From contig CM040100.1 of NCBI GenBank assembly GCA_022496805.1, positions 25,077,009 through 25,141,008 on the forward strand: a DNA stretch of 64,000 nucleotides. Direction: 5' to 3'. This stretch comes from Pohlia nutans. Lineage: Eukaryota; Streptophyta; Bryopsida; Bryales; Mniaceae. The notes below the pieces were generated by a model. It saw nothing but the letters and a program-made list of their open reading frames with translations, was not told the origin of the DNA and ran no database searches. The number at the start of each line of letters is the position of its first letter. The stretch's first letter is position 1. Positions 7,290 to 57,080 of this stretch are shown here, one piece after another. A program made the translations under genes and the position numbers.

Positions 7290-7517
7290 CTAATATCGCC
7301 GATGTCCCCGAAATGTCCCACGTTCCGCGTCCCACTGTTGCTCAAAAAAACGTTGATCTATCAGCCGCCTTTCATTCTCTTCCTCTTCGCTCCGTCTTAT
7401 CGCTTCTTGAAGATCTCTTTCGTACTCATCATCTCGATCGTACTGACTCGATGGCCCAACAGCAAATCCGTCAGGGGGGCCGTCTGCAGCACTATACATA
7501 TCCCTACCAAAACTCAT
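7290..7517 (-). CDS. Small acidic protein or exon with a ubiquitin-interacting motif
   Basis: A 75-codon frame starts MSFGRDMYSA and ends GHRRY. Residues about 29-46 read EYERDLQEAIRRSEEEEN. This fits the ubiquitin-interacting motif pattern well: acidic run, Leu, two residues, Ala, three residues, Ser, two residues, Glu. UIM helices bind ubiquitin in known proteins. It is probably the last exon of a gene at the outer end of the cluster B minus arm, since the same strand carries other exon-like frames to 8.8 kb. Splice joins were not resolved. Whether it is a separate gene is unknown. Confidence 0.45.
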   Translation of the reverse strand: MSFGRDMYSAADGPPDGFAVGPSSQYDRDDEYERDLQEAIRRSEEEENERRLIDQRFFEQQWDAERGTFRGHRRY

Positions 7518-7926
7518 GGGTGCACCGCTTGCTGAGCCTTCGCCGGGGCCAGAACATAATATTCATTAAAATGAGAGAATTCCAGAATAATGAGAGTCCA
7601 AAAAGTGTAAACCCAACCCAAATCGGAGCACTAACGATTCCAAATATAGGCTGAAACAATAGAAAATGGACACACTGAAGATCAAATTGAGTACATTTAA
7701 TACAAGTGGGCAATAAAAGATTACAAAAGTGACATCTATTTATAGTAAGTATAAAACGAATATACATTTTTTGTGTTTTTGTATTGCGGGACAGTAATTG
7801 AATCATGATAATGTCTCATAATGCTAGGAAAAAGAATGAGCGAAGCGCAAAATCCTATATAAAAGCATCAGCTCCACGTTTTTTTATAAGTCTGTATAGT
7901 AATCGCAAATAAAATGCCTAGCGGTA

Positions 7927-8285
7927 TCATGAATGTGATCGGCTCTTAAGTTCAGCTACTGCCTTCAACATCATAGGACCACGACTATAGCCGGTATACT
8001 TTGAACATCGTTGTTGCGCATCCTCTCGCCTCTGTTGCTTCAAAATCCGTTGCTCCCACGCATCTCGATAAGGAGCGGAGCTCCTTATGGGTAGAAGTCC
8101 GTCGTGTGACTGATTCTCTCGAAGACCCTCATTCAATGAAGGGTGACGAGTACGCAAGGGCGCACGAGGAGGCACATCAACACGGGCTTGGATTAGAGGA
8201 GGCGGGTCTGCTGACAGCATCGCAGGGTTCTTTCGGATAGCATTTAAAGTAGCAGAGGACTTGCATCTATTCGGCATGTCGGAAC
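7927..8285 (-). CDS. Exon-like frame, basic protein of unknown function
   Basis: The open frame ends at a TGA near 7927. Upstream lies a plausible acceptor (TATTTGCAAG, exon starting near 8285). The product is rich in Arg, Pro and Ser, with a Gln/Arg-rich helix (EQRILKQQRREDAQQRCSK). No family was recognised. It may belong with the neighbouring frame at 8374-8660, but the splice phases I read do not agree. The gene model is therefore provisional or the gene is damaged. Confidence 0.35.
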
Positions 8286-8373
8286 CTTGCAAATACAAGG
8301 AAATGTTTAAGTAAATCGCACGGCAAGTCTGTCTAAGAGAAATAATAATGCGGGAAAAGTAAGTATTCGTACC

Positions 8374-8660
8374 TCTAGAGAATCAATTGGGCATGCAACG
8401 TCTTCATATAGCTTTCTCTGAGGCACTCTATCAGAGGGAGAACGCGAGCGACGAGACGTAGAGGGTTCCCGTGACCGCAGAGGAGAAAGAGAACACACAG
8501 ACAGAGGCTGCGGCCCACCGTTGGGGGGACTGTCCACTACACCATCCTCAATTGGCCTAGTGGAAAAGTCCATCGTTGACTGGGCCATAGCTGCCAAACA
8601 CAAGAAGTTTCCTTTACTGAGTATAGCATATTGGCCGTAGTCCATGATAGAGTCGTCTGA
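8374..8660 (-). CDS. Exon-like frame with Ser/Arg/Pro-rich linker
   Basis: The frame includes MDYGQYAILSKGN, then a low-complexity stretch with SRRSRSPSDR, and ends at a strong donor (CTAGAG then GTACGAATAC, exon end near 8374). Candidate starts are the ATG of MDYGQY near 8646 or MAQSTMDF near 8588. It lies on the same strand as the other cluster B minus-arm genes. No domain was recognised. Confidence 0.35.
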
Positions 8661-9023
8661 CGCTGTGCATTGGAGGTTAGTACTGTGGACCGGAATCGCA
8701 GTGGCATACCTTGCCTGAAGAGAATAAGTGACAAGGTCAAATCCCAGCAGCGAACTGCAACGAAACAAAATATTCTAAACACTAGAGAAGAGCAAAACAT
8801 GATGCTAATCGAATAAGAAAGCGATGAAGACATAACACATTGAAGGGACAACATTCATAAAATTCATCTCACAAAGTACTCAAGCGGAAATGATGTGAAG
8901 GACAAGTATATTACAAATAGAAGGACATATACAGATCAGTCAAGGCGACCAAAAATTAATATGTAGTCTGGAACGGCTACATCACTAGGAAAAGGGAGTC
9001 CAGCTATACAACACTACAATCAA

Positions 9024-10274
9024 CTAAGACCTAGACAAACTACGGGATGCGTGTACAGCCTCTATAAGGGCGCTGTACTGTCGACGGTCGGGCTCATCGC
9101 AGAGCATACGTCGCCCAATATTATTGTTCATTCGGAATGATGACAACCCTGGGCCAGGACTGCGATGGAGACGTCGAAACCATGCAAGGAGAACATCATA
9201 GAGAAAATTGTCACTCGCACCGTCCCCGAGGTAGGACCAAGAGTCATGAAGAATTACATTCTGGGGCTCATTCAAAATGTGCTTAATAGGGCTATCGTCC
9301 ACTACAATGGTGTTTGCAGACGTGAATCTGCCACCATATCCTGTGAACAACTTGACGAGATTCTTAAGGAACAAGTCCTTATCAATTCCAAGCACTTTGA
9401 ACGAAGACACCCTGCCATGCCTATCCCTACACTTGAGGGTCTCGCACGAGTCTTGGCCAAGTACAAGGGAAGGGAGCTGGATGCCACGGAATAAATATCG
9501 TACTACCAATTCAGTGGTAGACTTCCTCATAGAACTCCAGACGGTAATGTCAGCGATCATGCTCAGTTCCCGGAGGAACGAGAAGCAGAGGAGGCGCACG
9601 TATACAGCTTTGGGCCCCACTACAGCCGGGAGAACGGCTGAGTGCAGCGCATTGAAATCGTTAAAGGGCGTAGGCGTGGACTTGGATTTCCAATCCTCGC
9701 AGACGCAGAGGATTCCATTCAGGTCCAGCACGACATTGAGCCATTTTTTGGGCGCCCTAGGCAGTGGCGAACAAATGACCGCCTCTGAAGAACCTCCATG
9801 AGAAAGAGGAGGACCGGATTCCTGGCGACAACGAGCAGACAAATGTGCAGCCAGTTATGATCCTGAACTGGCACATTTCGGACGACATCGCAAAAAACAG
9901 TAAACGATCGAGGCAAGCACGAAGATAAGCAACCAAAAGACCCAGCCATCACTAAGAAACTACCGAAACGTACCTGAAGGCCGGAGGACTCGATTGACTT
10001 GGCACTGACCACAGGTGTGACCGCCGAAGGTGCAGCTCCGGCGACGTTTAGAGGGCGGGAGGCCGAAGTACGTGTACGCTCATCCAATTGCGCACTCTCC
10101 TTAAGTCTACCAGGTGGCACAAGTGTTTGAGAGGACGGAGGGACGACAGGACAAGGGGGACCCCGGGCGAGGGCAGATTGGGCTCCAAGGACGAACTGTC
10201 CGGAGTAGATTTTGGGAGGGGATGCACAGCAGAAGGCAATTGAACATGAGACACATTGTGGGCACGGATGGAGC
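9024..10274 (-). CDS. FCP1/SCP-like HAD-family phosphatase, cluster B copy
   Basis: Two exons are supported: 9974-10274 (acceptor TCATCGCAG, donor CTTCAG|GTACGT) and 9024-9821 (acceptor GTCGCCAG), joined in frame as SSGLQ|ESGPP. The HAD core shows motif I (VVLDLNGIL), motif II (ITVWSSM), a motif III-like Lys (FLKNLVK) and motif IV (IVVDDSPIKHILN). This is the layout of FCP1/SCP (NLI-interacting factor) phosphatases, which remove phosphate from phosphoserine/threonine in partners such as the RNA polymerase II tail. The second catalytic Asp of motif I is Asn (DLNG), so activity is uncertain. The first exon carries GAAPSAV, conserved in the cluster D paralogue (34403-35243). A further upstream exon with the start codon was not found. 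Confidence 0.7.
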
Positions 10275-10507: not shown

Positions 10508-13500
10508 TTATTGAGAACCACCTACTGCAGCGTCAGTGTCGGGCGAGGCGGCAGTGTCCGCATTTGCACTGCCAGCAGCTCCGCTGAATCCCAGGCTGTC
10601 GTCAGCATCATCAGTAGCGGTCGATGACACTTGCTGGGGAGCCGGTGGAGCACACGCTGGAGCAACTGGAGGCGGAGGAGGCGCAACGACAGGCGAGGGC
10701 GCAGGTGGAGCAGAACCGCCGCTGATGTCTGATCCCGACTGCAGATTACCTAGCAGCAGAGGTTGAAGAGTTGACGGCGGGGGGGTTAATGCGGCGAGAG
10801 GACCCGGCAAAAAACTCGTCATTAATGCCTGCAATGCCTGCTGCATGGCATTCTGTTGCTGTTGCTGTTGCTGTAACGCCTCCATCTGCTGCTTATGCTG
10901 ATCCATCATGAACCTCTGGAATTCTCGCTGCTCTTTCGTCGATTCCGCGTGCATCTTCAGATTCAGCTCCGCGTTCGCCGAGGTCGTCGTAGCGAGAGCA
11001 TGAAACGAGGCACCCATCGACTTGATAAGTTCATTGACAGACCCACCTTTCTTTTTCTTCGACTTCGGCGTGGAGGAAGGAGACGCAGGAGGTTGGCCCG
11101 AGGACGCGGATGAACCGGGCGCATCAGATTTGCGGGGCGTTTCCAAAGGAGGAGGAGTGAGATCTTCATCGTTCAAGTCGTCACCCTCGTCATCGGAAGA
11201 GGAGACCTCATCATCCGCGTCATCCCTCTTCCTCTTAGAAGGACTACCCCACAGATCACTGGCTTTCCTCTTCGATGAAGAAGGCACAGGTCGTGCACCA
11301 GGGATACTCCGATTTCTCTCAACCTGCACTGGGTATCCGTCCTCGAGGAAGTCTGCCTTGTCGAGGTCCAAGGCCTCGTTAGCAATAGAAGTCCAGAATA
11401 CCGAAGTTTGATTTGACCCGACAGCGTAGATGTTGACGCAACTCATCTGCACAAATAGCATGACTGTCATCAAGTAAGTTAGAGAACCATACAGTTCACG
11501 AACAAATAATGTTTAGATCGAGCCGACCTAAACTGTGACGGCCAGAGAGGATACTAGTTTTAGGTCGATCCGAGCTAAAGTACAACATCGATTCCTAGAC
11601 TTGGACACATAACGTTTAGCTCGACTCGAGCTGAAATTCTTTGCAGGTCAAGTTGGACACATCAGACCAGAGCAAAACAGTTAATAGGGAGTTTAGGTCG
11701 ACCTGAGCAAAAATGTTGTAACGCTAGCACTACATAGGATTAGCTCGACACGAGCTGAAGAGCATGTGTCCAAGTGCTGGACTACGTACCAAAGCAGCAC
11801 AGGTGAGCTTGGTTCCCGTGTAGACGGCGAAGACATGCGTCCCTGGCATGCAGAACATCCTCACGACCCACAAGTAGAACTCCATTCTGAGTTCCGCATT
11901 GTACATGCGGTACAACAGCTCATCGTACGCCCTGGGCTTTGTATATACCGCCGTGTCTGGTGCGAAGAAGGCCTCGGGGATAGTGACGTGCGGAATATCA
12001 GTCTTCTGCAAGAAGACGAGGAGAACTTTCGCTCGCGCCCTCTTATGGTTCGCCGGATAGTCTCCGAGACGCTCGTTCTTCGCCGGATAGTAGTCCGCGA
12101 ATTCGATCTTGTATCTGCGGAGGATGTCGTCGTTTTCCGCGAAATGCACAGCCTGGGACTGCTCTATCGCATCTGCGCAGATAAAGAGCCAGACAGGTAC
12201 TTCATGGAAGTCCGGTTCACGTCTCCTTTTCAGGGACGACATGAAGTCGTAAAAGTACGGCATCCCCGTACTCGAAACTTCTTTGTCCTCGACCCCGGGC
12301 AGGTACCTGAAATCGATGACCCCGAGTCTCAAGCCCGTAGGCGTGTCGGCTGTCCAGGCGCCCTCGCTCCAATCGGCATGCTCGTTGTGCTGTCGGTCAT
12401 ATGGCCGGTAGTGAGCTTCTTCGGCCGGTTTCTGAATTCTTTCTTCTTCTCAAGGAAGACTTTGAAGAATTCGGCAGCGTAGGGAGATATTTCCGCGGTT
12501 TTCTTATTCTTGCTCCTGATCTGCTTGGCCTCTTTGAAGTATTGCTCTCCTGGCCGCTCGAGGAGGACATTCATGGTTGCCCTCGTGACGTTGTACTCCT
12601 CCTTGAATTGCCTCCACTTCTCGGGCACTAGGTCCCCCGCCGGATTGAAGAGTCCGAGATCACGATTGATATTGTGCAATTCTTTCTTCACGAGGTGCTT
12701 CCGCTTCCTCCTCTCCACCCACTCCTTGGTCAAATAGCACCTCTCTAGAACCGTGGAGATCGCCTTGATCGTGACCTTTGGATAGCCCAAGGTCCACTTG
12801 GGGTCGTCGTGGTTCAAGATATGTCTTGCAAGCTTCGCGAGGTCCTCGTAGGTTAAATTTCCGAGCCACTTGAAGAACTCGCGAGTGAGATTTCCACTCT
12901 CGGGATTCCAGTTGGGCTTCTTCTTGAACTTCAACCCAGTGTCTGGGTCAATAAGCTCACTAGCACCTGCGCTTGAGATCACTTCGCTCCAAAGATCAAA
13001 CACGTCGTCCGACGCAGTGATTAATTTTAGCTCATTGTGGATGTCGAGAAGTACATCCGCATTACTTTTCTTTGCATCCTTCTGCGACTGCGTCACGTCG
13101 ATCATCGCGAACCGTAGTTTCATAGCATTTTGAAACTCCTGCACGGTTACATACACTGTTAGCTACTATGCAGCATTTAGGTCGACTCGATCTAAAGCAG
13201 CAGAGGTAAGGGAGTGCAAGATATGCATGAAGATTCAATAAGCAAGAAGACGAACTTATGAGCATATTAGGTCGACTCGACCTAACTTGTGTTGGTATCG
13301 ATCTTTTCTATAATTACGGAGTGGATTACTTAGAATGCAAGCATAGCAGCAAGTAATTTAGGTCGAGTCGAGCTGAACATTACGTTGAACTTCTCTCTGT
13401 TCTTTTGGGCGTCCCTCGTCCTCAGGGCCTGATTGACCCTTCCCACCTCCACTGCTTCTTTCGGGTTCTTGGGGCGACCGAGGTTTATCCACACTTGCCG

Positions 13501-14847
13501 CGCTCCCAATATGATTGTGGCCCACGACGGCTTGATGACACCGAAGTGGTTCACGCGGTTGTAGTAGGCGGATATGGAACGAAGAGTTTCACTATTCTTC
13601 GTCCAAACTACAAAGCAGTTCCATTCCGCGAACTCTTTGATGTCGTCTGCGGCCATTCCTTCATCGCGCATCATGTAACTTGCTTTGATGCTGTGCTGCC
13701 CGTTTATCAGCCAGAACTTTCCATCTTTGATGGAGTCCCAGTCCTTCAGCCGCTCGTCCAGGCCGCAAGGCATCACGCACAGAGTCTGCTTGGTGCTCCT
13801 GTCGGGCATGTTGAGGAGGAAGGTCATTATCTTCTTCGCCAGACCCGGCTCGTACGAGCGGATGTTCATGTGCGCAGGGGCATCGACTAGTTGCTCGATG
13901 GGGAGCGAGAATTTTGTCTCGATGCCGAACAGGAACACATCAGTGCATGACGACCAAAACGTCCTGTACGCCTCGGTCGAGCGTGCGGAGTTTGGAGTCC
14001 TGTTCACCTCCAGGGACTCCGGCAATGAGGTCAGAGCGGACGCCAAACTCCCCTCGTTGATGACTGCAGGCGCCGTTTTATCTGCAGTTGGCCTCTTCTT
14101 GGAGCTGGATCCGAGGTGACTCTGGCGTAGTGCCGTCGATAGTGTCTGAGGCGTGTTCAACTTGCGTTTGCCTCGGCTCTGTTGCGGTCTAGGCGAATTT
14201 GTACCCATGGATCCCGCACTTCCATGGCTTCGGTTATCCAGGGACACAGTTTGAGGTGTCATCATTGTCCTCTGCATGTCCAGCTTCATTTTCATGACGT
14301 CAAAATTCTGGATCAGCTTCCGGATCTTAGAGTACAGCTTTGCCCCATGCAACGGCTGTCTGTTGCTGCCCTCAAAGAATTTCTTGTCGAATTGATCCTC
14401 CAGCTCCTTGATCATACCACTGAACTCTGTTGTTTCCAGGGAGGCTATTAAGGGGCTCAGGTTAAAAGGAATGAGAACGGAGTCGAACGTGAGCGTGAAG
14501 TTGTATTGCTTGTGCTTCGTGAAGTCGGTGTTCGTGATAACGCAATGCACGTGTACTATGGATTCATTACCCGCGTTGATGTCTTTCACCTTTTCTTGTA
14601 ATGACAGCGGCAGGAATGGGATCGCATTCTTGTTCTTCGTTATGAAGTTCAAGTCACGGGTCATCGGAATCATGTTCAGACTCCAAAACTCTACCAAGTC
14701 CTGGTCTACCATGTCCCAGAATTCACCAAAGTTTGCGAGGTCGTCGCCTTCTGCGCCGTCCGCGGTTGGCTGCTCCGCAGCTCTCTTGTAGTAGCACTCG
14801 AAGTGTTCTACTTCTACTTCCTTTGGTGTCCTCATCTCTTGCGCCAT
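10508..14847 (-). CDS. Multi-exon ParB/DGQHR-like and possible methyltransferase-like protein, cluster B copy
   Basis: Exons are 13384-14847 (ATG of MAQEM in good context, donor TTCAAC|GTAATG), 11790-13138 (acceptor CCGTGCAG, donor GCTTTG|GTACGT) and 10508-11446 (acceptor TTGTGCAG). Exon 1 has WLINGQHSIKAS at residues about 378-389, the signature of the ParB/Srx and DGQHR superfamily. The end of exon 2 (PGTHVFAVYTGTKLTCAAL) resembles the glycine-rich motif I of N4/N6 DNA methyltransferases, degenerate and placed after the rest as in beta-class enzymes. Exon 3 adds an acidic region, a basic KRK signal and a Gln-rich coiled coil. The frame changes once inside exon 2 (12330-12450), so there is an unseen intron or an indel. 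The D paralogue at 36281-40420 shares domain order and intron positions. Methyltransferase ancestry is a tentative inference. Confidence 0.6.
11512..11760. repeat. Five cluster B palindromes filling an intron
   Basis: The intron at 11447-11789 holds copies of the TTAGGTCGACTCGACCTAA-type palindrome at about 11512-11531, 11559-11579, 11615-11636, 11691-11707 and 11739-11760. Half-sites vary between AGGTCGA and AGCTCGA. Spacing is roughly 45-75 bp. Confidence 0.8.
13176..13378. repeat. Three cluster B palindromes filling an intron
   Basis: Copies at 13176-13197, 13265-13285 and 13357-13378 lie within the intron 13139-13383. The middle copy (TTAGGTCGACTCGACCTAA) is a perfect palindrome. They are of the same family as the array at 14.9-16.3 kb. 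Confidence 0.8.
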
Positions 14848-14873
14848 TTTGTGCACAAAGTGTACATACAAGT

Positions 14874-16263
14874 GTTTAGGTCGATGCGAGCTAAAGTGCT
14901 TACAACACATAGTATGCGAGTTAATGAGTCGCTATAACTTGAATATAGCATGTCATGTACATTTTTAGGTCGACCCGAGCTAAAGAGTAACTATCGTTAA
15001 GGATTTTGGGTTAGTGGGAACTACGTATATCCGCTGTAGTGCTTATGCTGACCTATGTGGTACAAATTAGGTCGACTTGATCTGAATATAAATAGAGTAA
15101 TTGAATATTTCTGGATCATTCTTGCCATATTTATGTACTACTTACCGATAGCGCAAGTCTGGGTCATGCCTTCATTTTATTTTGCATTGCCAGCCATTTA
15201 GGACAATTTAGGTCGACTCAATCTGAATGTGCGTAATGTAAGTGCGTTTTCATGCATATGGATGGGAATATCAGGTAATTTAGGTCGAACCGACCTGAAT
15301 TAACACAGTCATAGTGTTCACCTTTCTTGCAAACTGATTGGTGCTTCGGGTATTCTAAGTCAAACCGAGGTTTATTTTACGCAGATTAGTTCAACTATCA
15401 TGCATTTCCGGTAATTTAGGTCGGCTCGAGCTGAAATCGCACATGGTACATTTCAGTTTTGTAGACATTATATCTTCTATGCGATAAACCTTTATCTTTC
15501 TGTGCTATTTTAGGTCGATGCGAGCTAAACTGGTGAACCGGAGAATGTGTGAGTTTAGGTTGGGTCGACCTAAACAGGCAGAACTGGTGAAACTATATAT
15601 TTGTAATTTTGTTTTGCGTACTGTAAGTGCGTTTTCATGCATATGGATGGAAGTATCAGGTAATTTAGGTCGAACCGACCTGAATTAACACAGTCATAGT
15701 GTTCACCTTTTTTGCATACTGATTGGTGTATCGGGTGTTCTAAGTTAAACCCAGGTTTATGTTACGTAGTTTAGTTCAACTTTCATGCATTTTCGGTAAT
15801 TTAGGTCGGCTCGAGCTGAAATTGCAGATGGTACATTTTAGTTTTGTAGACATTATATCTACTATGCGATAAACCTTTATCTTTCTGTGCTATTTTAGGT
15901 CGATGCGAGCTAAACTGGTGAACCGGAGAGTGTGTGATTTTAGGTCGGGTCGACCTAAACAGGCAGAATTGGTGGAACTATATATTTGTAATTGTGTTTT
16001 GCTATTTCTTTTGTTTAGAACTTAGTGTAGTTTAGGTTGATTCGAGCTGAATCGACCACATATTAGCTGTACTACAGCTGTGGTATGGCACAAATACGTG
16101 TTCTGGGGGTATTTAGATCGATCCGACCTAAAATTGTTGTAGTGCCCTCTGTCACTTTAGATCTGGTCGACCTAAAGTGCCGTCTGTCACAAGAGTTTTG
16201 AGTCCATTTACATCGGCTCGAGCTAAACTGACATCAATCTAAAATGACATCGACCTAAACTAC
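14874..16263. repeat. Main cluster B palindrome array in the first intron of the minus-arm gene
   Basis: About 19 copies of the TTAGGTCGACTCGACCTAA-type palindrome lie between the first coding exon and the proposed 5' exon at 17.4 kb. Positions include about 14875, 14963, 15067, 15206, 15279, 15415, 15510, 15552, 15662, 15798, 15895, 15938, 16030, 16110, 16157, 16208 and 16245. Most are imperfect palindromes with an invariant TCGA-containing core. Sequence between sites is AT-rich and non-coding. Confidence 0.85.
15236..16003. repeat. 385-bp direct tandem duplication within the palindrome array
   Basis: Sequence starting GTAAGTGCGTTTTCATGCAT near 15237 is repeated 385 bp later, near 15622. 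All four palindromes and the spacers of the first copy recur with few changes. The two copies meet near 15618. The high identity indicates a duplication younger than the rest of the array. Confidence 0.85.
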
Positions 16264-17399
16264 CGTTTGTCACATGCAGGTAAACCAAAAACAATTGTGC
16301 TCAAACATAGCAAAACATAGCAAAACTAAAATTATCGTCTATGACATGCAGGTACAGAATGCATTCAGTGCACAGAAGAATGAAACTTATACAATTCACA
16401 GTGGTGAGTACAGCGCGTACCTAATCTCCTGGAATTTGAAGTTCAAACTCCACGAACAACTGCTCCTGATGGCCAAATTTTTCAATCTAAAACATTGCAA
16501 CAAATTCACTCATCAATGAATTGAACTTGTATAGCATACATGAAATTCATTTTTCATTCAATGTTTCAACAATATCACCATTCAAGAATCTCATACACAC
16601 CAAAATGCTAACAAACATGATATATGAGCTTCATTGACTAATATTCAAATACAATAGCGAAGAATGGGCATTTTCACTCAATGTCTATGAAATCGACATC
16701 ACCAAAGCTAAAATTTAGAAATCAAAATCAGGAATTCAAAGCAAGCAATGTCAAATATCATTCGTTAACGGAATTAATCAAACAAATCACACCCTAATCT
16801 CAGAAAGGCCATGCACCACAACCCATGGAATCAAGAAAGACCTCTGACTCTGTCAATGTCTTTTCTTTTGATTTTGAGACATAGAATTCAAAATCACGAA
16901 TTCACTCCGACACGTTCACTGACTGAGATTAGGTTAAACACCTCCATGTTTTTTGTTATTGTTCATAAGCTTGAGTACTTTTGTACTGTCCATAGTATCC
17001 AGCCAAAAAACACACATAATGCAACGAAACTAATTTGTAATTTGTGTCTGAGGAATCTGAAACTGCAACGAAGGTGTTCCTCTTCATGACTCTGATTAAT
17101 GCTCCGACTGCAAAAGTGTGTCGAGCGGAAGATCAAGAAAACAAAGCTCGAATTGCAAAACAACACAGGAGCAAAAATTCGAAAATTTTGAGATACAAAA
17201 TTCAAACCCTAACGAGCCCGTTCCTCCCCGGTATCACGGACCCTAAACGGACAAACAAACAAGCAAAACCCGAAGCCAAAAACTGAAAACCCTAGCAAAC
17301 CCTAGAAAACTAGACAGTAATTTAAACCTCCAACCGACAAAACACAAGCTCGAGCTCCAGCGACAAAACACAAGGTCTATAAGAAACGTATCAACTTAC

Positions 17400-17660
17400 C
17401 AGGCTAACAAGCAAAGCAATACTCTGCCAATTTTCGCTCAATTTGTCTCCACAAAACCGCATCCGCAAGAAGAAGCCAGAGAAACAGAAGCACGAGGTCT
17501 CCAATCCCAGCGACAAATCCACATCACCTCTTCCCTAAATCTAGAGCAACATGAGCGACAAGAGAGTGAACGAAAGGGGAGGGCGCCAACAGCAGCAGCA
17601 CGACAACGAGGGGGGAGAGCAGAAGCAGCAGGAGCAGGAGGAAGGAGGAGAATGAGCTCC
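17400..17660 (-). promoter_or_regulatory. Proposed 5' exon and promoter side of the cluster B minus-arm gene
   Basis: A strong donor on the minus strand (TTAGCCTG|GTAAGTTGA, exon end near 17400) lies at the inner end of a C/T-rich, CTG-rich stretch like a plant 5' leader. The intron it opens runs to the ATG exon at 14847 and contains the palindrome array. Cluster D has the same arrangement at 42153. No clear TATA box was found. Confidence 0.45.
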
Positions 17661-17739
17661 AAACCCTAATCCCGAGCCCCATCCAGAAGCGCTGCCCTGC
17701 CCGAGGGCGAAAAAAATACATGGTGCCCAAGTAGGGCAT

Positions 17740-17935
17740 ACACATGCATATACATGTATATGCATATACATGTGTATATACATGTGTATATACACATGTA
17801 TATACACATGCATATACACATGCATATACATGTGTATATACATGTGTACATATACACGCATGTATGCAGTAGGTAGAAGTATATGTATGTACATATGTAT
17901 GCATATATATGTATATACATATACATACAGTACGT
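17740..17935. repeat. Alternating ATACATGTGTAT microsatellite
   Basis: Runs of TATACATG, TATACACATG and GTATATAC words in both orientations over about 190 bp give a self-complementary simple repeat. Long Tyr/Cys/His/Met-rich frames across it on both strands are by-products. Confidence 0.9.
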
Positions 17936-18097
17936 GGAAGGCAGGGTCGGCAGAAAATAATTCTCCCAATAAATGCTGAAAGAATAAATAAGTTTTGTTG
18001 ATTATACTGTTGAAATCAACAAAAATGAAGTTAACAAAATGCCTTGCATATTAAATAAATCCTACTTTGAACAAAACAGTCAACAAAATTGGATGAA

Positions 18098-18655
18098 CCC
18101 TTTAACGTCCCGATTCAACACTGTTTTCACAGAAGCGCTATAAATGCTTGATGAAAATAAAAAATGGGGTTCATGGTCAAAACAAAGTTGTAAATTTCAA
18201 TGTGATGATCACATCTGTACGATTGGATTTATTATATTTTTGTTTAATAAAGGCCATATTCGTTATATTGAGACTTTTTGCACTATTATTTTTATTTTCA
18301 ATTCGAAGATAAACCATTTTATCTCTTTACTAGTATTTTTTTAGAAATAGGTAACAACATCAACTTTTAGAATTTCATTATAGAATCACTATTTGAGCAT
18401 TATTATTTTTTTGAGGTCAATTACTAGTTTTTAAATGAATTTTTGAATAACTACTAGCATTCTGTCTCAAAATCTGTGAAACGTCTCAATATAACGAATA
18501 TGACCTTAATATTTTTAAATTAATTTTGCAAGGTTTTCTCTTGAAATTCAATTTAAAATCCAGAACGAGCACAATTTTTTTTAAAAAATATGGTAATAGT
18601 ATTGAAATAACATGCACTACGAGATGGTATGATTTCCATTATGTGATTCTGCTTA
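18098..18655. mobile_element. Truncated TTAA-type MITE (CCCTTTAACG ends), partner of 57762-58301
   Basis: Sequence from CCCTTTAACGTCCCGATTCA onward matches the reverse complement of the complete element at 57762-58301, including AATAACATGCACTACGAGATGG. The right part is lost where the block joins another repeat at 18655. It is split by a 256-bp MITE. The flank is TGAA rather than TTAA, probably mutated. Confidence 0.65.
18251..18506. mobile_element. 256-bp MITE with TAA target duplication (Harbinger-like)
   Basis: Inverted ends AGGCCATATTCGTTATATTG and AGGTCATATTCGTTATATTG, each continuing into AGAC, are flanked by TAA at 18248-18250 and 18507-18509. A TAA/TTA duplication suggests PIF/Harbinger-type mobilisation. 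It interrupts the TTAA-type MITE exactly, as seen by comparison with 57762-58301. Confidence 0.8.
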
Positions 18656-18695
18656 TTTTCATGTGAGCACAAAATTTGAGAGCAAAATGACCATT

Positions 18696-19046
18696 AACAA
18701 GGGTTTCGTTAAAAGTGCCTATTGAAATGTGCACTATTTTTTGGGATTATTTTTGAATATTTTAATCACAAATTTTGGTATGTATAAGCAATAATATTGT
18801 ACTTTGGCTAGAGTCTTTTCAGATATATTTTGATAAATCTTAAGGGGTGAGGCACATGCCACACCCCTTATAACAATATTTTGCCTATCTTAAGGGGTGA
18901 GGCACATGCCACACCCCTCATGATGATATTTTTCTTACTAGGATAATTATAAAATGATCATATTTTCAATGAAATTTATAAATTTCCAAAAAATTGTTCA
19001 TGTGCACTTTTACATATTGAATTGCACTTTTAACGAAACCCTTGTT
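18696..19046. mobile_element. 351-bp MITE with AACAAGGGTTTCG ends
   Basis: Ends are AACAAGGGTTTCGTTAAAAG in inverted orientation, flanked by CATT (18692-18695 and 19047-19050). The empty site is visible at 3770-3780. Inside are two tandem copies of the palindrome-like GGGGTGAGGCACATGCCACA (18843 and 18893). A related end (CTTGTTTCGTTAAAAGTGCA) occurs at 29955. Confidence 0.8.
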
Positions 19047-19509
19047 CATTACATTCTTAGATTATACGGATCAAAGTTGCAAAAGAAGATTTTTTGGGGT
19101 TCAATCCGGTGACAAATTTGAACTTTTGAAATTAATATCTTTTTTTTGAATGGGTTAGAAATTCAATGAATGGCAAGGCCATGTTAACAATTGAGTTAAG
19201 TCTTCAAATATAAAATCTTGTAAGAAAAAAGCTCATATTAATTTTTTCATAAAACAATTACTAGAAGTGGGTACAAAGTGAAAGGAAAAAGAAAATCATT
19301 AATAAGTTTGACATGGAATTGTAAAATGTCAATCTTAATAACGGTGAGAATGTTGTACTTGGAAATCTTCACCTACTATAGTGCATTTTATTTCATTAAA
19401 AAATATTGAAAATTGAGTTTAGAAATGAGCTTCAAAGTTTTTTTTGTCCAAACTGCCCAAAAAACAGATTTCCTCATAACTTTTATCCCATTGCTCCAAA
19501 TTTCTTAAA

Positions 19510-22030: not shown

Positions 22031-22037
22031 TTTACTA

Positions 22038-22787: not shown

Positions 22788-22799
22788 GATTAAATACCC

Positions 22800-23185
22800 T
22801 AAAACCGCTCATGAAATTTATAAGAAGTTACCTCCCTGAGGTGGTTATTTTATTGTCAACTACATTTGTACTTTCTACAAATCCAACAAAGTGCAGTTTG
22901 AATGATATTATTATTATGATATACAATTTAATATAGAGCAATGTCTCACTGTAGATTTTTCCGTTTCCAATTTTCGTGTTACATAGGGATGGAATCTATA
23001 TTTGAATGAAGTATTCAAATACCGTATAGAACTCTATTATTGTCGCGTATATATTCAGTAAGCTTTTGTCCTTGACAGTTGTAAAGTCCACCAAACTTCG
23101 TGGATGATATGATTTTTCAGTGGATGAAAAGTCACGGTTCAAAAATCTCCCTTGCTCTTCCCGCCACATCGTTCCCGCCTTATTG
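22800..23185. other. Upstream region of the cluster B plus-arm gene
   Basis: AT-rich at first, then richer in GC toward 23180. No open frame and no palindrome of the cluster B family. Likely promoter-proximal DNA for the transcript starting near 23200. Confidence 0.35.
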
Positions 23186-34400: not shown

Positions 34401-34402
34401 CA

Positions 34403-40420: not shown

Positions 40421-40455
40421 CTGCAAACGCTCTTAGTATCAGATGCTTAACTGCA

Positions 40456-41360: not shown

Positions 41361-41412
41361 AGATTGAGCTAAATGCTAGATTCTACAAAGAAGGCGAATA
41401 ATAATCTAGACG

Positions 41413-44302: not shown

Positions 44303-45064
44303 TCAGTAATCTATTGGGAGTGGTTGATTATTTTTTATTTTTCTTTTAATATGTAGAATAATTGATCCGGCATGATGTATAGCAATGGTGTTTATTTCTT
44401 TGAATGTGTGTTTAATGGCGGTTTCTGGTAGTTTAAATTTTGTTTCAAGGAGTTTCATTGAGGGGATATGTGTTGTGCCTCTAGCTCCTGCCGTGATGAC
44501 TATGAGTGGGTCAACTTTCCATCCTAAATTAATAATGCTGTTAATAAGTGGTTGGTATTTTTTATTTTTGAATTCTATTGTTGGTTGTGGGAATCTGTCA
44601 TTACAATATGTAAATTCAATAAATTGAATTGTGAGATGGTTTGATGGATGTGATGGTGGGTCATTTTTGTATGGGAGTCCTTTTACATAGAAGATGTCTG
44701 GTTTGAATCTAGCGTTGCAATGGCATCTTTGTTGTTCACATGTGCATGGGAGTAGCCATGGGGGTACTGTGTTTTCTTGGGGGTTATTGTTGAATGTTCC
44801 TGCGTTCATGAGGGTGTAACATCTAGATTTTTGTGATGAGAGGATTGGTTTCCTGATTTCCCAAACTGCTTTGTTATGTCTTTTGACTCTAATGGCGTGA
44901 ATATGGTGATGACTACATTTTAGAAGTGCATGTAGCCATGTGTCTGCGTCTGCAGAGTTGCAGATAGAACATGATATTGAGGTGAATCTTTCTCTTCCAA
45001 AAAATAGTTGTTTTCTAGCATTACCCATATATTGGCCGGTACGAAGTTTTAATATCAAAACCAT
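44303..45064 (-). pseudogene. 3' part of a LINE: zinc knuckle and restriction-like endonuclease region
   Basis: A 253-codon frame lacks a reverse transcriptase core, so the element is 5'-truncated. Near the N terminus a CX2C...H...C knuckle (CSICNSADADTWLHALLKC) is followed by RHN. Then come FKPDIFYVKG, IQFIEFTYCND and KKYQPLINSI. This series (PD, a downstream acidic residue, KYxPL) is typical of the restriction-like endonuclease C terminus of R2-like non-LTR retrotransposons. The end is KRKIKNNQPLPIDY. The frame itself has no stop, suggesting a fairly recent insertion. Clade assignment is inference. Confidence 0.65.
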
Positions 45065-45537
45065 TGTTCAAATAATTAGTTTATCCGATTAGAAGATAAG
45101 AATTGAGGTCTCAATAACTACCCATGCTCCACCCATTTCGAGACAAATGAAATATATACTCTTGAATCCTCCCGTTTCCACCCATTTCGGTGGAGCTTCC
45201 TCCTTTTAAGGACCGGCCACCCACTACCCCCATACATGGAAGGAGGCCCTTATAGTCCTCGTACCGTTTGTCTACATTCTAAGAATATGTACAGACTAAC
45301 TAGACTAGTATTTTGGTGTTCTAACTAACTTGAAATCATAGACTCTTGGTCTATCACTTCCCTCATAAGTAGCTTAATTACCACATGAAAAACTTAATTC
45401 CAACAAAATGTATATTTTCACTACGTGCTAAAATCAATGTCAACTACACTTTTAGAAATGGATGCAAGTACAATTTTCAACTAAATCCATATTGCATGTA
45501 CATTCTTTTTTACTTTACATGATTCAATTTCATTTAT

Positions 45538-48105: not shown

Positions 48106-48111
48106 CCTAAA

Positions 48112-48193
48112 CCCTAAACCCTAAACCCTAAACCCTGAACCCTGAACCCTAAACCCTAAGCCCTAAACCCTGAACCCTAAACCCTAAACCTCA
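48112..48193. repeat. Interstitial telomere-like CCCTAAA tract
   Basis: About eleven CCCTAAA units, some changed to CCCTGAA or CCCTAAG, in one orientation. It lies just upstream of a TTAA-flanked MITE within the central region of cluster D. Confidence 0.9.
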
Positions 48194-49367: not shown

Positions 49368-49865
49368 GTAAGAGTCACTTCATGAATCACATTACCTCAG
49401 TTACATATTCTTTACTTAGTGAAATCTAATTTGTTTCAGCCGCACCGCTGAAGAAATGTGATAACTGTTTAAGTTAGCATGTATCGGGCAAATCATGAGT
49501 CAAATTGTCAAAAATGGTTTCATGCAGTTTAAGTATGGGAGAAATTTATGCAGCACTAGTATAGCAAAAATTTACTCAGCTCCAGTATTAATAGCAGAAT
49601 TGTCATCGTTGAGCGCAAGTAAAACTCCAATACTATTCAAATTATTGTAGGCCTTTACATCCAACAGCTTGGAATATTATGATAGGACTCGCGGAATCTT
49701 AATACATCTTCCACTATTTAGAGATATTAGTAGTCTCTAAACCATTCAATCAACAGTGAATTGTGTCTTTCCTCCAAGCGGCTGTATAAATCATCAGTTT
49801 GCAATGTCAAAATTATAGAGATGTGATGACGTGGACATGTACGGATACCATCCCGAGTTTATATC

Positions 49866-50535
49866 ATCGGGGGATCACCCGATGATAACTCTCAGACTAG
49901 GAATGCATGTAGTTTTGATACATCGGGCGATCCCCCGATGCACAAAGTTGAGGTGGTATTGATCTCGTACTAAGACATCGGGCGACCGCCCCATACAATA
50001 TGTGGAGGAAGTGTAGCACGACCAACCTAAACATCGGGCGACCCCCCGATGCAAGTCAGACGTAAAGCTTGCAGATTAGCATCGGGAGATCCCCCCATGC
50101 ACGAATCAATTTATTGAGGCCGCTGCAGCATCAGGCGATCCCCCGATCCACCTCAGGACGTCAGGCTGGAGACCAGCATCGGGCGATCCTCCCATACACC
50201 ACAGAACTACGTGTTCAAGACATGCATCGGGCGATCCCCCCATGCACCTGAGCTCTGCTGGTTGCCGACCACCATCGGGCGATCCCCCGATCCTACTCAG
50301 AACTACAGTTTGCATATCTGCATCGGGCGATCCCCCCATCTACCTTTGGCCTCCGGGTTACAGACCAGCATCGGGCGATCCCCTAATACTCCTCAGCGCC
50401 GTAGGTTACATAGCACCATCGGGAGATCCCCCCATCCTGCATAGGACTACTTGTTGCATACAAGCATCGGGCGAACCCCCGATCTCCATTGGGGGTAAGG
50501 GCTGCAGAACACCATCGGGTGATCCCCTGATACCT
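49866..50535. repeat. Phased cluster D palindrome array, about 48-bp period
   Basis: Fourteen ATCGGGCGATCCCCCGAT-type sites lie at about 49866, 49922, 49978, 50031, 50082, 50129, 50177, 50225, 50273, 50321, 50370, 50417, 50464 and 50511. From 50082 on, spacing is 47-49 bp. Spacers of about 30 bp are diverged but share a pattern (CACCTCAG, then ACT, then GGTTGCAGACCAG). This indicates an old 48-bp tandem repeat whose palindrome is better conserved than the spacer. It sits in the first intron just upstream of the ATG. Confidence 0.9.
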
Positions 50536-50549
50536 TCTGACGCCGGGGC

Positions 50550-53500
50550 ATGGCCTCTGGGAGCGGCTCGAATTCTGACTCGACCTATGCGAGGTCTGCA
50601 CCCGGAATTCAGCTCCGCAATGGGATGGACGTCACACTCCTATATCCCGATATCGGTGAGGTCGGATCCGGTTTTATCCTTGAAGCTCGACCAGCTGGGA
50701 TCTGGCTTGGAGTGTGTTATCCGGACGATATTCAGGAATATGTTCTGCTACGGCCATCTGAGTTTTTTCCAGAGTTCGAGACTCTTCCATTACATCCTCG
50801 CCATCTTGGCATCAGTGTGATTGGCCAAGCCTTAGATAAGACTGTTCTCTGGAAAGTTGTCGATTTGATCATACCATCGGGCGATCCCCCGATCGATGAG
50901 GATGTCGCCAACGCGGATTATCCCTTCCTTGCAAGATCGCAGTGGGTGGGGCATGAAATCCTGAAGAAGGTGGAGATTGGATGGGTTGTGGCGTCGGGAA
51001 GAATCAATTGCTGCTTGCCAACGGATCATTTCCAGGACAGTACTTTGGGCGATGGGTTTGTTGGGGTCACTGTCCTTCAAGTAATGGACGGTGACGTAAT
51101 GACAATCATGACGCATCAGAAGTGGCCAATTTCAGAATGCTCTTTTGCTTTCGGTGGTCGCGGTCTCAATGCCACTCTTCTTCACCTTGCTTCACTTCCT
51201 GAAGTTGACGACCCTGACGCATATCTCGGAGGAATTCAGAAAGCTCCGTATCGATTTCTCAATAGAAAGCGATGTGAAGATCCAAAGGTATCCCTGTATA
51301 CCAAGAAGACGGAAGACGCTGAGATTCGATTGGTCAGCGCTGAGAAGTGCTGCAGTTTTCGATGCTGCCAGGTATTCCCTTGGGCTGATACTCGCTCTGT
51401 CAGACAGTTGTTCTATCTGAAGAGTTATGAGGATAGTCGTGAGTATGCCATCGCGGCTGGTGGACAGATGCACGCAAAGGAGGGGGTGAGAATTAAGTAT
51501 CTTACACTCATGGGAAGTGAGGTTTGCGCAACGGCTTGGTATAAAATTCATGGTATTGCAAAGTCCACATTCCATTCGTACATGGAGAAGTACAATGAAG
51601 GTGTACTTTCTGGTCAGCATGGAAATAAAGGCTGCAAGCGTCCCCGGATTGGGACAGTTCAGGCCATGGGCACAATTGCGGCGATCGTCGCTGAGAACGC
51701 TGATCAAATGCCTAACCAGATGCGTGGAACAGGAAAGCACGGCCAAATGGATACTTTGAAGTATCTTCCGTCTGGAAACAATTGGACTCAAGTCCACGCT
51801 GATGTAAATGAGGTACGTTCCATGAGCTTTTTACTATTGGTATCGGGGGATCCCCCGATGCTTCCATGGAATTGTGTCCGTGATTACGATAATTTCCATT
51901 CATTTGTTTTGTAAGCTAATTTATACACTATTGTCACTCACAGACAAACGTGTCTTACGGCCTTCCGCCGGTCAGTCAGTCTGCAATTAGCCGGATCAAG
52001 AAAGGCATGTTCAACAACGTTGCTATCAAACCTGTTGGAAGCAGTTTTGCCAAATGTACTGAGTGCGACATACTTCAGCAGTTTCTTCTAAGGTGTTCCA
52101 AGGGCAGCCCCGAATATGTTTCATTTCTGAAACAACGAACCTCGCATTTGAATCATCAGGCATCATGCCGTCGACTCTACGCTACTTGGCGAGAAGAATC
52201 GAAGCGAAATCCGCAGGAATTTCTTTGCGTAATTCACGACAAAATGGATACAGCCAAGACAGCTCTTCCAAGGATGCGGACTACAACAAAGGCAACCTCC
52301 GGCTTGGGCCAGCTTCCTATGAACGTTACTGGAATGGTTGCTCATGGCCACTGCGACGGCGCGTACGCGCATTACTCACCCGATTGCTGGCCGTGCGATT
52401 CCAATGCCACCATCTCTTCTCTTGCCAGATTATTCAGGTAGCTTTTAGAGCCACCTCTCCGAGAATCACGGGCGCTTTTTCCCCATCCCCCAGCTAATGC
52501 TCTATTTGAAGCATTGTTACGCGGAAAGTCCATGTGCATCGATGCTTTGACGGTGATGGATCCAAACAAATGTACTGGCCGATCCCGGCTTCCTCCGAAC
52601 TTGTATCTTCAGTTAGATAATTCCGCGAAGGACAACAAGAACCAGTTCCTGATGACCTTTCTATCATTGCTCACGGCAAAGGGGGTGTTCAAGGAAATCC
52701 ACGCGGGGTTCTATTTGGTGGGACATACCCATGAAGATATTGATGCGTATTTCAGCCATCTCTCGAAGGCACTCAAAAACAAAAATACTTTTGTGCTAGC
52801 GGACCTCATGAAGGCATTCATGCAGTCCCAGGAATTGTCATTCATGCCAGAGTTTGTGCAGGAGATTGCAGATTTCAAGTCCTATATCAAGGGCTTCCAA
52901 TGCGATGGGGCAACTCGATTAATTGGCCTTGGCGACATGCACCTCTTCAAATTCTATGTTGACTCTGACGGCTGGCCGGTCATGAGATGGAAGAAATCTA
53001 CAGTGGATACCGAGTGGCAACCGCAGAACAAGCCAGCAATTCGACTTTGGAAAGAGGATGACAACGGGCGCCCGTTACTACCGTATGGTCCGTTAAACCC
53101 AGTCCCTTTCAAGCACATGTGGGGCAGCGAAGTTCCATCAGCAACGAGGAATCAGGAGAAGGCAAGAGAGTCTGCAGCAAAGGCGACAGAGGCGGACTTT
53201 CATGATGCACGGAATCCGCAAGTACATTGAGTACTGGGAGAGTGGTCGGAGAAGGTGCTCGACGTTTGCTGCTGCATTCGAACCTTATGTGCAATACTGG
53301 TCTCGAGTCCTCGATGAGCTGCAGAAGCCTCTCCCGCCAACACCGTCGCGCCTTGTGGAGGGCTTTTGGCCCCTACACGATTGGAGAGGGCCATCGTTGA
53401 CCATCCCACGCTTGACTCTGTTACCATTCGACGAGACTCCTGAGGACGAAGAACCTCAGGCGTACTGCGGGCCAGCAAACGAACGGCCCGAAGAACGATT

Positions 53501-53870
53501 TAATCCCTGGCGCCAGATCGCCCTTCTCTGGTGGGTCATTCTCAGACCTGAAAACCCAGTAGTGTGTCCTGTGTAGATGGGAAGGGCTGTGTCTTCAGTG
53601 TGTAGGGATGAAGGGGACGATAAATATGGAAAGTTCCTTATCCAGTACTGGGAGCCCCAGAACGCAGCACGAGATATGGCTAAAAAGTATGAGAATTGCT
53701 GGTCAGCTAAGTGGGTTGTGGAGGACCGCCGTCCCGAATGAATCGACGTTGCTACTGTATTGTACGCGTCTTATTCTAGGATCGCTAATCCAAAGTCACG
53801 TACCATACCCAAGAGGGATAAAGCTCGTGCGTTAGACAACTTGACGAGAGCGAACATTGCAGATCCCTGA
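50550..53870 (+). pseudogene. DUF7869-like putative transposase, cluster D copy, with several stops
   Basis: Exon 50550-51813 (donor AATGAG|GTACGT) starts MASGSGSNSDST in reasonable context and includes a Tudor-like N-terminal region and a Cys region (CCSFRCCQVFPW). After an intron with one palindrome, exon 2 starts near 51943 (acceptor ACTCACAG). It carries VIHDKMDTAK, GMVAHGHCDGAYAHY, QLDNSAKDNKNQF (52610) and LVGHTHEDIDAYF (52720). In-frame TAG at 52439 aligns with Asp in B. Near 53205 the frame shifts to one encoding YIEYWESGRRR and VQYWSRV. TAG at 53574-53576 replaces the Trp of VWIARA, and TGA at 53739 replaces another Trp. The gene was once over 1000 residues and is now broken. A palindrome at about 50875 lies in exon 1 and reads SGDPPI. 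Confidence 0.7.
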
Positions 53871-54591: not shown

Positions 54592-55071
54592 GTTTGTATC
54601 TGTACTTTAGGAATCCTGCTGTTACTGTCCACTAATATTAACCTTGTCTATTAGCCAGTCTTACCATCATCAAGGATAGTCTATTTCTTTTTTTATTTAC
54701 TCTCACTTGTGAATATGTAGTACTGAGATTTCATATGTATAATTGTCTAGCATGAGTTTTGGGAATTAGATCTGCAATTGAATACAATTGGGGACAATTA
54801 TTAGCCGTCATTGTGATTGCATGCAATTGAGAGGGCTACGTACATAGCCTATTGTAGGGTAATCTACGTACTTTGTGTAGAATGGCGGCTCACATGAGAG
54901 TGCAATTCATTTGAAGTGTGAGCTCCCCTCTTCCTAGACTTTTATATCTGGATGTCTGAGTTTCTTCTCCTTCACCATTCACTGCATTCCCTTCCTCAGT
55001 CACCTCCCTTGCTTCTGTTGTTCAACATCTGGCCTCCTCCATATCTTTGCATCATCTGCGTAGCCATCTCC

Positions 55072-55539
55072 ATGGACTCTAGACTCCCTCCCCAAGCTGA
55101 GCCACCTCTCCCTCCTCATTCAGGGACTCGGGGTGCATTGACTGGATACCTGTGGTTTGTCTACAATTCTGATGCAGTTGGTCGTCTTCCTCCTCATCCA
55201 TTGTTGCAAGGGCTTGTTAGTGGCGAGCCCTGGCACTGGAACTACAACTATACTCTAGAGATGGCACGTCTGGAGGCTCATTCTGACATTGCATGGGATG
55301 ATGTTTCCGACCTTGTGAATCGTCCATCCTCAGATATGCTTCGGGCCATGTCTGTGATATACCAGGCTTGCGGGTGCGTGCTCCTTGATTTCTGCGACTG
55401 TTCTTCGACATCAGCGCCTGAGAGCACCATGAACGAAGTCATTGACATAACATCGGATACATCTGTCCACATCACGGAGCAGAACGATGAGGCAGGAGCT
55501 TTGGATACCGCATCGGTGGGGAGCAACCGCCAAACTTAG
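55072..55539 (+). CDS. Small cluster D protein with a possible SUMO-interacting motif
   Basis: A 155-codon frame starts MDSRLPPQAEPPLPP; I chose this ATG over the one at 54952 because its context (CTCCATGG) is better and the upstream part is leader-like. A TATA-like TTTTATATCTGG lies near 54938. The middle has WHWNYNYTLEMARLEAH and a Cys cluster (CGCVLLDFCDCS). Near the C terminus NEVIDITSDTS fits a SUMO-interacting motif (hydrophobic V-I-x-I with acidic and Ser/Thr neighbours). It is flanked by cluster D palindromes, so it may be an accessory gene of that element. Function unknown. Confidence 0.45.
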   Translation: MDSRLPPQAEPPLPPHSGTRGALTGYLWFVYNSDAVGRLPPHPLLQGLVSGEPWHWNYNYTLEMARLEAHSDIAWDDVSDLVNRPSSDMLRAMSVIYQACGCVLLDFCDCSSTSAPESTMNEVIDITSDTSVHITEQNDEAGALDTASVGSNRQT

Positions 55540-55799
55540 AATTCACATTGCCACCCTCAACCGGATTACTCGTCTGGCGTTTGATTTTGGGATACGACCG
55601 GCTGTTTTCGGGTTTGCGCGTAATAGAGTTTTGCCCTGCTCATACCAGTATTGCGAATTTTGAGGCACCAGGGTATTTTAATTTTGCTGTTGTGAAGTAT
55701 TGTATGATTTTTGGTTCCCAGCTTGGTGGCCTTTTGCTCACTGGTGAGGAGCATGTACATCTGTTTTATGAATATACTGTAATTATACTACTGCTGTGA

Positions 55800-56960
55800 T
55801 CGGGTCGGGGGATCGCCCGGTGTGTAATCAGAGCTTTGTGTTCTTCTTTTTAGACGTTCTTATTTTATCCTGCATCTGATGTTCCGAAGAGTATCGGTGG
55901 ATCGCCCCATTTCGACAGGATACTGGAGTTCGATATTCGTAATGGACTGAATTTCCTACTTCGGATCGGGGGATCGACCCATGGGATCCTGTGATCTGTA
56001 GCGGCGGTTTCTTATTAATTTCATTACTCATTATGGAGATCTTCTAGTAAGAAGAAGTCATTTTCTGGTACCACGCCCATGAAGCTAGTGCATGGTGACT
56101 GGTGTCTGTGGTTTTGTTCTGAGGAATTCTTTTCTCTTCCTGCATCTGATGCTCTGTAGAGGATCGGTGGATCCCCCCATGTGATTTGCATACTGGACTT
56201 CTTTGTTCTCCATGCACTAAATGTCCTACTTAGGACCGGGGGATTGACCGATGTGTATTATTTCCATTTGATATTTTGCAGACTATCGGTGGTCCAGATC
56301 GGGGGGTTGCCCCATGTTTACAGGGAACTCTCTGTTCTTATTCTAAGGAATTCTTGTATGTACCTGCATCTCATGCTCTGGAGAGGATATGCAGGAACAG
56401 ACAAGAATTCCTTAGATGCATCTAATGCTCTGCAGTGAGTATGTTCCTGCATCTAATGCTCTGCAGTGAGTATGTTCCTGCATCTAATGCTCTGCAGTGA
56501 GTATGTTCCTGCATCTAATGCTCTGCAGAGGATACCTATGAGGTATTGGAGGCGACGTGGAGCTCGACAAATGTGCTGGGGCGTTTTATTTTTGAATCTT
56601 GTTACTGGAATCGATTCTTTACATTTTCCACTTTCACACGTAAGATAATGAAGCGCACTTCATTATAGTTTCGTTGTTTTAGACTCGCTCTATTTCCAGA
56701 CACTCTCCTGTAAGTATAGTCAATCACCGGGGGATCTCCCCATAATTCTCAGAATATTATATGTTTATCTTTAAGGTTAGAGTCCATTTACTCACAAAAT
56801 TTCAGAAATCAATGTATCGGCTAGGAGATCTTGGTGCCCACACTCAATTGAAGAATTTTAGAAGTTTGAAAATTGTCACTCTGAATTTCCAAGGTTTAAG
56901 TTTTAGGAAACTCCTTCAATCCCATTACATCGGGGTATCCATCGGTTCGTGCCCTCGCTC
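55800..56960. repeat. Right-hand cluster D palindromes, decayed
   Basis: Sites at about 55803, 55893, 55966, 56163, 56236, 56284, 56300, 56728 and 56938 (for example ATCGGTGGATCGCCCCAT and ATCGGGGGATCGACCCAT). They are spaced irregularly and more mutated than the intron arrays. They mark the right outer part of cluster D. TGCATCTGATG words recur just before several. Confidence 0.75.
56425..56530. repeat. 31-bp tandem repeat, about 3 copies
   Basis: The unit TGTTCCTGCATCTAATGCTC followed by TGCAGTGAGTA is repeated at 56441, 56472 and 56503. Diverged versions of the same words (CCTGCATCTGATGCTCTG) precede palindromes at 55870 and 56140. Confidence 0.9.
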
Positions 56961-57080
56961 GGTGCATTACCGGTTGATCGATATATTATGGCTGTTTGTT
57001 ATTCCTGGACTCTGGACTGTCCATATTTAGTTAAATAACGCATTTTGGTGTTTCATGCCACATTAATTTTCATATGTTAT

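Follow-up and report, generated by a model that had tools for sequence, protein, structure and literature searches.

The stretch analysed here (the window) comprises 64 kb of the Pohlia nutans genome (contig CM040100.1, positions 25,077,009 to 25,141,008) and contains two giant transposons with terminal inverted repeats (TIRs), B (7553–29956, about 22.4 kb) and D (31978–57043, about 25.1 kb). Each encodes a DUF7869-type transposase-like protein, a protein with a ParB-like motif and a NIF phosphatase, and each carries many copies of a palindrome of its own. A preliminary description had placed two such elements at 7.3–29.1 kb and 32–57 kb; both are real, with the corrected limits given above, which were obtained by comparing the window copies with their own genome (698 Mb, 332 contigs).

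Ends, copies and genes of the two elements

The boundaries of B are shared by other copies. A query with the left edge gave 40 scored places out of 646 candidates, and 35 of the 39 outside the window start at query position 260–266, i.e., at about 7553. The right-arm query gave 40 scored places out of 2066, and 10 of the 11 right ends fetched cease to match the window at 29954–29957. Other copies run on past this point with GTGTT or a variant of it; the window copy is without these final 5 bp and has no target site duplication (TSD), possibly as the result of a later insertion or rearrangement. The inverted repeats at the B ends read AACAYAATATTCATTAAAATGAGAGAAT, the left one (AACATAATATTCATTAAAATGAGAGAATTCC) lying at 7553–7583 on the plus strand and pairing with the right one at 29934–29956 on the minus strand. 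A 4-bp TSD, read by eye, flanks all eight other B copies in which both ends were examined (TTGA, ATAA, TAAA, ACAA, CTAT, CGTA, TTTA, and AGAT). For D, where one copy may give several match rows at the left end and at the right end, 34 of 77 other rows start at the left end (query 469–479) and 26 of 105 stop at the right end (query 2544–2553). Both D ends carry ATGCG[G/T]TATTTAACTAAATATGGAC, the left TIR (ATGCGGTATTTAACTAAATATGGAC) being located at 31978–32002 (plus strand) and the right TIR at 57019–57043 (minus strand), and in the window copy, from which the TSD of D is taken, TTTG flanks either side. Definable ends, target duplications and many copies agree with the earlier proposal of a family of large mobile elements. 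As TIRs and TSDs are present the elements are transposons; a viral insertion was considered and rejected, as neither a capsid nor a replication gene turned up in the Pfam scan, which covered 16 ORF pieces from the two elements.

The two elements share one layout, as had been described from their sequence: the NIF (HAD/FCP1-like) phosphatase gene and the ParB-motif gene are located on the minus arm and the DUF7869 gene on the plus arm, the first and last being identified by Pfam and the second by its motif. The phosphatase ORFs (PF03031) span 9027–9854 in B (E 6.9e-12) and 34406–35110 in D (E 1.4e-15), both on the minus strand, and their products are 27% identical. The DUF7869 genes (PF25273), 39% identical between the compared pieces, are on the plus strand at 24926–29051 in B (E 2.6e-40, delimited also by tblastn of homologues and the ORF table) and at 51300–53860 in D (E 9.2e-36). 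B and D are two related families, diverged long ago, that represent a single type of giant TIR transposon. The exon and coding limits used here are our own choice and approximate.

A DUF7869-domain protein encoded inside an element with TIRs and 4-bp TSDs makes B and D DUF7869-type DNA transposons. The DUF7869 ORF of B (25637–27106) is preceded by in-frame stops at 25013–25015 and 25634–25636, and that of D (52442–53227) by one at 52439–52441; homologues align across 25634–25636 and across the D stop. With these stops in the transposase frame both window copies are non-autonomous and decayed; the original idea had been of a family of autonomous elements. In B, homology to known proteins stops at about 27100 and restarts at about 28374; in D there is a homology gap at about 51822–51937, probably an intron, which has one palindrome inside. 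The B transposase piece has 376 protein matches, and the three that carry an organism name among the 120 listed are from the mosses Physcomitrium patens and Ceratodon purpureus. The predicted structure of the DUF7869 piece (mean pLDDT 63.5) had no PDB match with E ≤ 0.001; its strand order and conserved acidic residues (D180, D302, and D342/D344), in our reading of the model, fit an RNase-H-type DDD domain. PDB sequence searches with the DUF7869 alignment, with the second exon of B and with the ParB exon of D gave nothing useful.

The ParB-motif gene is split in both elements. In B a first exon containing FWLINGQHSI (13384–14898, minus strand, 5′ end approximate), for which there are five protein homologues, is followed by one or more second exons (11790–13138) ending VFAVYTGTKLTCAAL, with an apparent frame change near 12332–12449 in the window copy. 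In D the corresponding exons are at 39012–40508 (YYIIGGQHTVAA, 5′ end uncertain) and 37344–38726 (ending LLINLHGGPNITYVGL), also on the minus strand. It takes a profile-to-profile alignment to recognise the B and D proteins as homologues (hhalign probability 95.9%, E 5.7e-9), a single-sequence BLASTP giving E 0.015.

A number of further observations concern the copies and their surroundings. B copies, like D copies, tend to fall into two groups by chromosome: those 94–98% like the window copy are found on C1, C4, C5, C9, C12, C16, C17, C20, and a few others, and a second group, 86–93% like it, on C3, C7, C10, C11, C15, C18, C19, C22, and C23, with exceptions such as an 82% copy on C17. This may be the mark of two sets of chromosomes whose transposons have had different histories, as might be the case in an allopolyploid. 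From 29957 onward the shortened right end of B is adjoined by AACACTTG... Between the arms of D an ORF at 44306–45067 resembles, by eye, the C-terminal part of a LINE-type protein and has no Pfam match, and the centre of D holds an AT-rich array of 766 bp (43127–43892) with an 8-bp unit (TTATTAAT). ORFs at 59045–62188, outside D and to its right, are part of another gene, which encodes a MULE transposase domain (PF10551, 60289–61041). An Rfam scan of the window gave nothing at gathering score.

Private palindromes and their placement

When up to five mismatches were allowed in the 64-kb window, 37 B sites (TTTAGGTCGANTCGACCTAAA) were found at 11512–24781, all inside B, and 52 D sites (CATCGGGGGATCCCCCGATG) at 32038–56928, all inside D, so that each element has a private palindrome in more than 30 copies and none of the other's, as first noticed. 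Chance palindromes can be rejected as five first-order Markov versions of the window gave 0, 0, 0, 0, and 0 sites with the B pattern and 0, 0, 1, 0, and 0 with the D pattern. Genome-wide, with up to two mismatches, the B core occurs 5371 times and the D core 5258 times, whereas the corresponding reversed patterns occur 13 times and twice.

The sites are mostly outside coding sequence, only 1 of 37 in B and 1 of 52 in D being coding in the approximate gene models; a D site at 40454 is a little upstream of where the coding model begins, yet still within the ORF. Dense arrays, originally placed in a first intron at each gene start, are situated directly upstream of the ORFs, possibly behind a non-coding 5′ exon. 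In B, 16 sites lie at 14875–16227 (minus strand) upstream of the ParB-like ORF, the first at the edge of the ORF, in an array that includes a 385-bp tandem duplication (15230–16002), and 13 sites lie at 23650–24801 (plus strand) upstream of the transposase ORF, with a 76-bp unit repeated 5.2 times at 23716–24112. In D, an array with a tandem duplication of about 520 bp (40380–41416, minus strand) is found upstream of the ParB-like gene, and one of 48-bp units (49861–50894, plus strand), part of it also in an open frame, precedes the region with transposase homology. Short runs of the telomere-type repeat (CCCTAAA)n occur in D (41442–41500 and 48106–48190) and in a third family, E (L060:2014–2133), near the promoter side of palindrome arrays, and single telobox-like motifs are found in B near 17204–17661.

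Family E is known from 6 kb of one copy (L060, adjoining L052). Its protein is 36% identical to that of D across the first ParB exon, and it has no B sites and 11 sites of the D class, seven of them in an array with a spacing of about 60 bp upstream of the ParB ORF. The D site class is thus stable over substantial protein divergence, and the B and D sites are wholly different. The preliminary claim that intron positions agree held for two homologous phase-0 positions of the ParB-like gene, which are the same in B, D, and E: intron 1 interrupts ...KFN|EFQNAM (B), ...KFK|NDFLPK (D), and ...EFL|DFVPAL (E), and intron 2 ...TCAAL|MSCVN (B), ...YVGL|RNNAS (D), and ...THLGL|ENQTM (E). All of these introns contain sites. 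Intron 1 of B (13139–13383) has three and intron 2 (11447–11789) five, intron 1 of D (38727–39011) has two and a third at six mismatches, intron 2 of D (37177–37343) has two, and the E introns have one and two D-like sites.

All three relatives with the ParB-like gene that were fetched (L058, L059, and L060) carry palindromes. Two of them are relatives of B (L058 and L059, both covered over 6.5 kb and about 70–86% like B by segment in blastn) and have 21 left-arm sites each, the window copy 24. In alignments with these two relatives, identity over the window palindromes (22 and 23 sites) was 0.615 and 0.694, compared with 0.447 and 0.530 for random non-coding 21-mers, and the observed values were reached in 0 of 2000 and 2 of 2000 control draws, respectively; this is moderate evidence for conservation as the aligner may favour the matching of repeated sites. 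A rule linking the orientation of asymmetric half-sites to the direction of transcription was rejected: the 5′ half is weaker in B and its relatives, and the opposite holds for the right arm of D and for E.

It is conceivable that the palindromes have no function and that a few old insertions were amplified passively by tandem duplication and copying of the elements, as many sites are within tandem repeats. This is very unlikely. In three families, introns at matching positions contain sites; the sites are more conserved than the sequence around them; and small geneless elements of otherwise different sequence have them too (see below).

The ParB-motif protein is a candidate for binding the sites. 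The name ParB/DGQHR given to it at first rests on the GGQHT/NGQHS motif, since no domain model matches: Pfam, NCBIfam, and PHROGs gave no ParB/DGQHR match, all matches being weak ones below the curated cut-offs. To the eye, the C-terminal part of the protein resembles a Rossmann methyltransferase with a changed catalytic motif, there being a motif-I-like stretch followed by a second strand in the B, D, and E proteins and DFRY, DVHG, or DAAG where a DPPY-type motif is expected. As both site classes contain a four-base palindrome, GATC in D and TCGA in B, such a part might mark adenines within it as a label of self. We regard this as the least likely of the explanations, as Pfam and PHROGs gave no methyltransferase match, the DPPY-type position is altered and the predicted fold is unusable (pLDDT 39).

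Sites outside the full elements

Palindromes without the genes would have counted against the preliminary description. B-type sites of this kind do occur, mostly in a form that strengthens the view that they act in cis. Among the matches listed, all on contig C1, there are at least 13 clusters of B sites. Six of the 13 listed have a B left-end match no more than about 24 kb away, on the expected side, six others were fetched (L045–L050), and the remaining one is at C1:32883506. L045 and L047 are copies, 95% alike, of one geneless element of 0.56 kb with six sites 51–52 bp apart, and L046 is a truncated copy of this type with three sites and its right end gone. L049 and L050 belong to a second geneless type of about 0.4 kb with two sites, and L048 is a more decayed member of it with indistinct ends. 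B-like terminal repeats and a 4-bp duplication delimit L045 (GAAC), L047 (GTTA), L049 (AGTT), and L050 (TAAA), so that at least four of the six fetched places are geneless elements whose ends resemble those of B. The longest stretch that they share with element B measures 50 bp and coincides with the terminal repeat. Also fetched were seven D sites lying apart from the listed D copies, and no small geneless element like those with B sites was among them: L052–L055 are one diverged family of the D lineage with the site in an open frame resembling the acidic linker of D, L056 is a right arm resembling that of D, and a weak similarity to the D phosphatase region is all that L051 and L057 (86% alike) show.

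As the geneless elements keep the palindrome it is probably kept as a cis site, which argues that it serves the DNA that carries it and not the genes alone. The arrays upstream of both genes and inside introns would also be expected if the palindromes were operators through which a repressor or activator of the two genes sets copy number, with no part in silencing or end recognition. This is improbable, though less so than passive amplification, as sites, many of them perfect, persist in geneless elements, where gene regulation is pointless.

It is also possible, if somewhat unlikely, that the palindromes are transposition sites, as for TnpA of Spm/En, to which an accessory protein or the DUF7869 protein binds, pairing the ends and aiding excision, and that the arrays near the genes serve feedback. 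Complete geneless elements retain the TIRs and two or six sites, mostly with 0–2 mismatches, the outer ones being about 50 or 140 bp from the ends, and D has sites near both ends. The outermost B sites are on the other hand about 4 kb (11512) and 5 kb (24781) from the ends and the sites lie in introns and upstream arrays, which is poor for end pairing. Taken together, the distant sites of B favour an anti-silencing role, and the near-terminal sites of D and the geneless elements favour a transposition site.

A possible role in self-recognition

The explanation to which we tentatively give most weight, at something short of an even chance, is that the palindromes serve anti-silencing or self-recognition. 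The DUF7869 transposase would cut and paste the element at its terminal repeats, making a 4-bp target duplication, and a second element protein, most likely the ParB-motif protein, would, as a dimer, recognise the palindrome of its own family. The arrays, dense in the introns of the element's own genes and upstream of them, would collect this protein on the family's own copies and on their small geneless relatives, and the bound protein may protect promoters and ends from being silenced by the host, in the way VANC acts on VANDAL elements. Lineages that change site and protein together would then cease to recognise each other. In favour of this explanation we count the defined ends and TSDs, the privacy of the sites, their position mostly outside coding sequence and in the two shared introns, their conservation, their presence in geneless elements, and the fact that the tandem units of the arrays (76, 385, 48, about 520, and about 60 bp) are unrelated and yet bear the site. 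Binding, the identity of the binder, anti-silencing, and coevolution of site and protein are what we infer.

Several points weigh against this explanation. The HMM searches recognised no DNA-binding, ParB, or methyltransferase domain in the ParB-motif protein, and the predicted fold of the second ParB exon of D was the unusable one. The outermost D sites (32038 and 56928, with three and five mismatches) are about 60 and 95 bp from the ends, as for subterminal transposition sites. The palindrome of the D-lineage relative L052 is within an open frame and may be coding, and the conservation test, which aligns repeated sites, can favour alignment of palindrome on palindrome. The E protein, for all its divergence from that of D, keeps nearly the same palindrome. 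The proposal that the site switched between lineages together with its binding protein fits in that each lineage has one private class; a possible joint switch was seen once only, as there are just two site classes, that of B and that of D with a variant in E. TIRs and transposase (39%) also differ between B and D, and therefore the site could follow the transposase.

The closest parallel is VANDAL21 with its protein VANC21 in Arabidopsis. VANDAL elements are of the MuDR type. According to PMC5735166, VANC21 binds motifs in tandem repeats, which lie upstream of VANA21 and, in VANC21 and VANB21, inside introns; the motif is said to differ between related families in PMC5735166 and PMC10398659. 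Like VANDAL21, B and D are DNA transposons with a transposase gene and further genes, and they repeat a short family-private motif many times over, within tandem repeats, in introns, and upstream of their own genes. They differ in having a DUF7869 transposase, a 4-bp TSD, and a ParB-motif protein in place of DUF1985/DUF287 proteins, and no MULE, DUF1985, or DUF287 domain was found by Pfam in the scanned ORF pieces. Their site is a palindrome of 20–21 bp, present also in small geneless elements, unlike the 9-bp YAGTATTAY motif of VANDAL. Because the protein content differs B and D are placed outside VANDAL; they may work as VANC does.

TnpA has a repeated subterminal binding motif with sites at both ends. 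D resembles this with its subterminal sites at both ends, whereas the B sites are kilobases away from them, and no TnpA-like protein was found among the scanned ORF pieces. Spm/En TnpA is a transposon-encoded protein linked to activation and DNA demethylation, according to PMC10398659. A third group is similar in its TSD: Sola elements have a 4-bp TSD and a catalytic domain of the D/D/D type, and a TSD of this length is found in the eight other B copies and the window copy of D, the window copy of B having none. Sola elements are not known to reach 22–25 kb or to have ParB-motif and NIF genes or palindrome arrays. A Sola1 DNA transposon of the moss Physcomitrella is named in a table of PMC9033089. 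A literature search whose coverage was without most subscription papers and preprints gave no mention of DUF7869 and nothing on palindrome arrays in moss transposons, both weak evidence of absence.

We would go further only with greater reserve, and suggest as a more doubtful possibility that a VANC-like anti-silencing system has evolved independently in an unrelated giant DUF7869 transposon, where a ParB/methyltransferase-like fusion is specific for a private palindrome, one or more exchanges of this recognition pair have occurred between lineages, and geneless elements ride along by means of the palindrome and the terminal repeats. How transposons tell their own DNA apart and evade silencing without harm to the host is an open question. 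If the suggestion is true, VANDAL/VANC, the worked example that we found, would have a counterpart in another transposon family and in a distantly related land plant, which would suggest convergent evolution. As its site is a clean palindrome, a protein is at hand as candidate, and there are minute natural derivatives reduced to ends and sites, this counterpart would open the question to direct tests.

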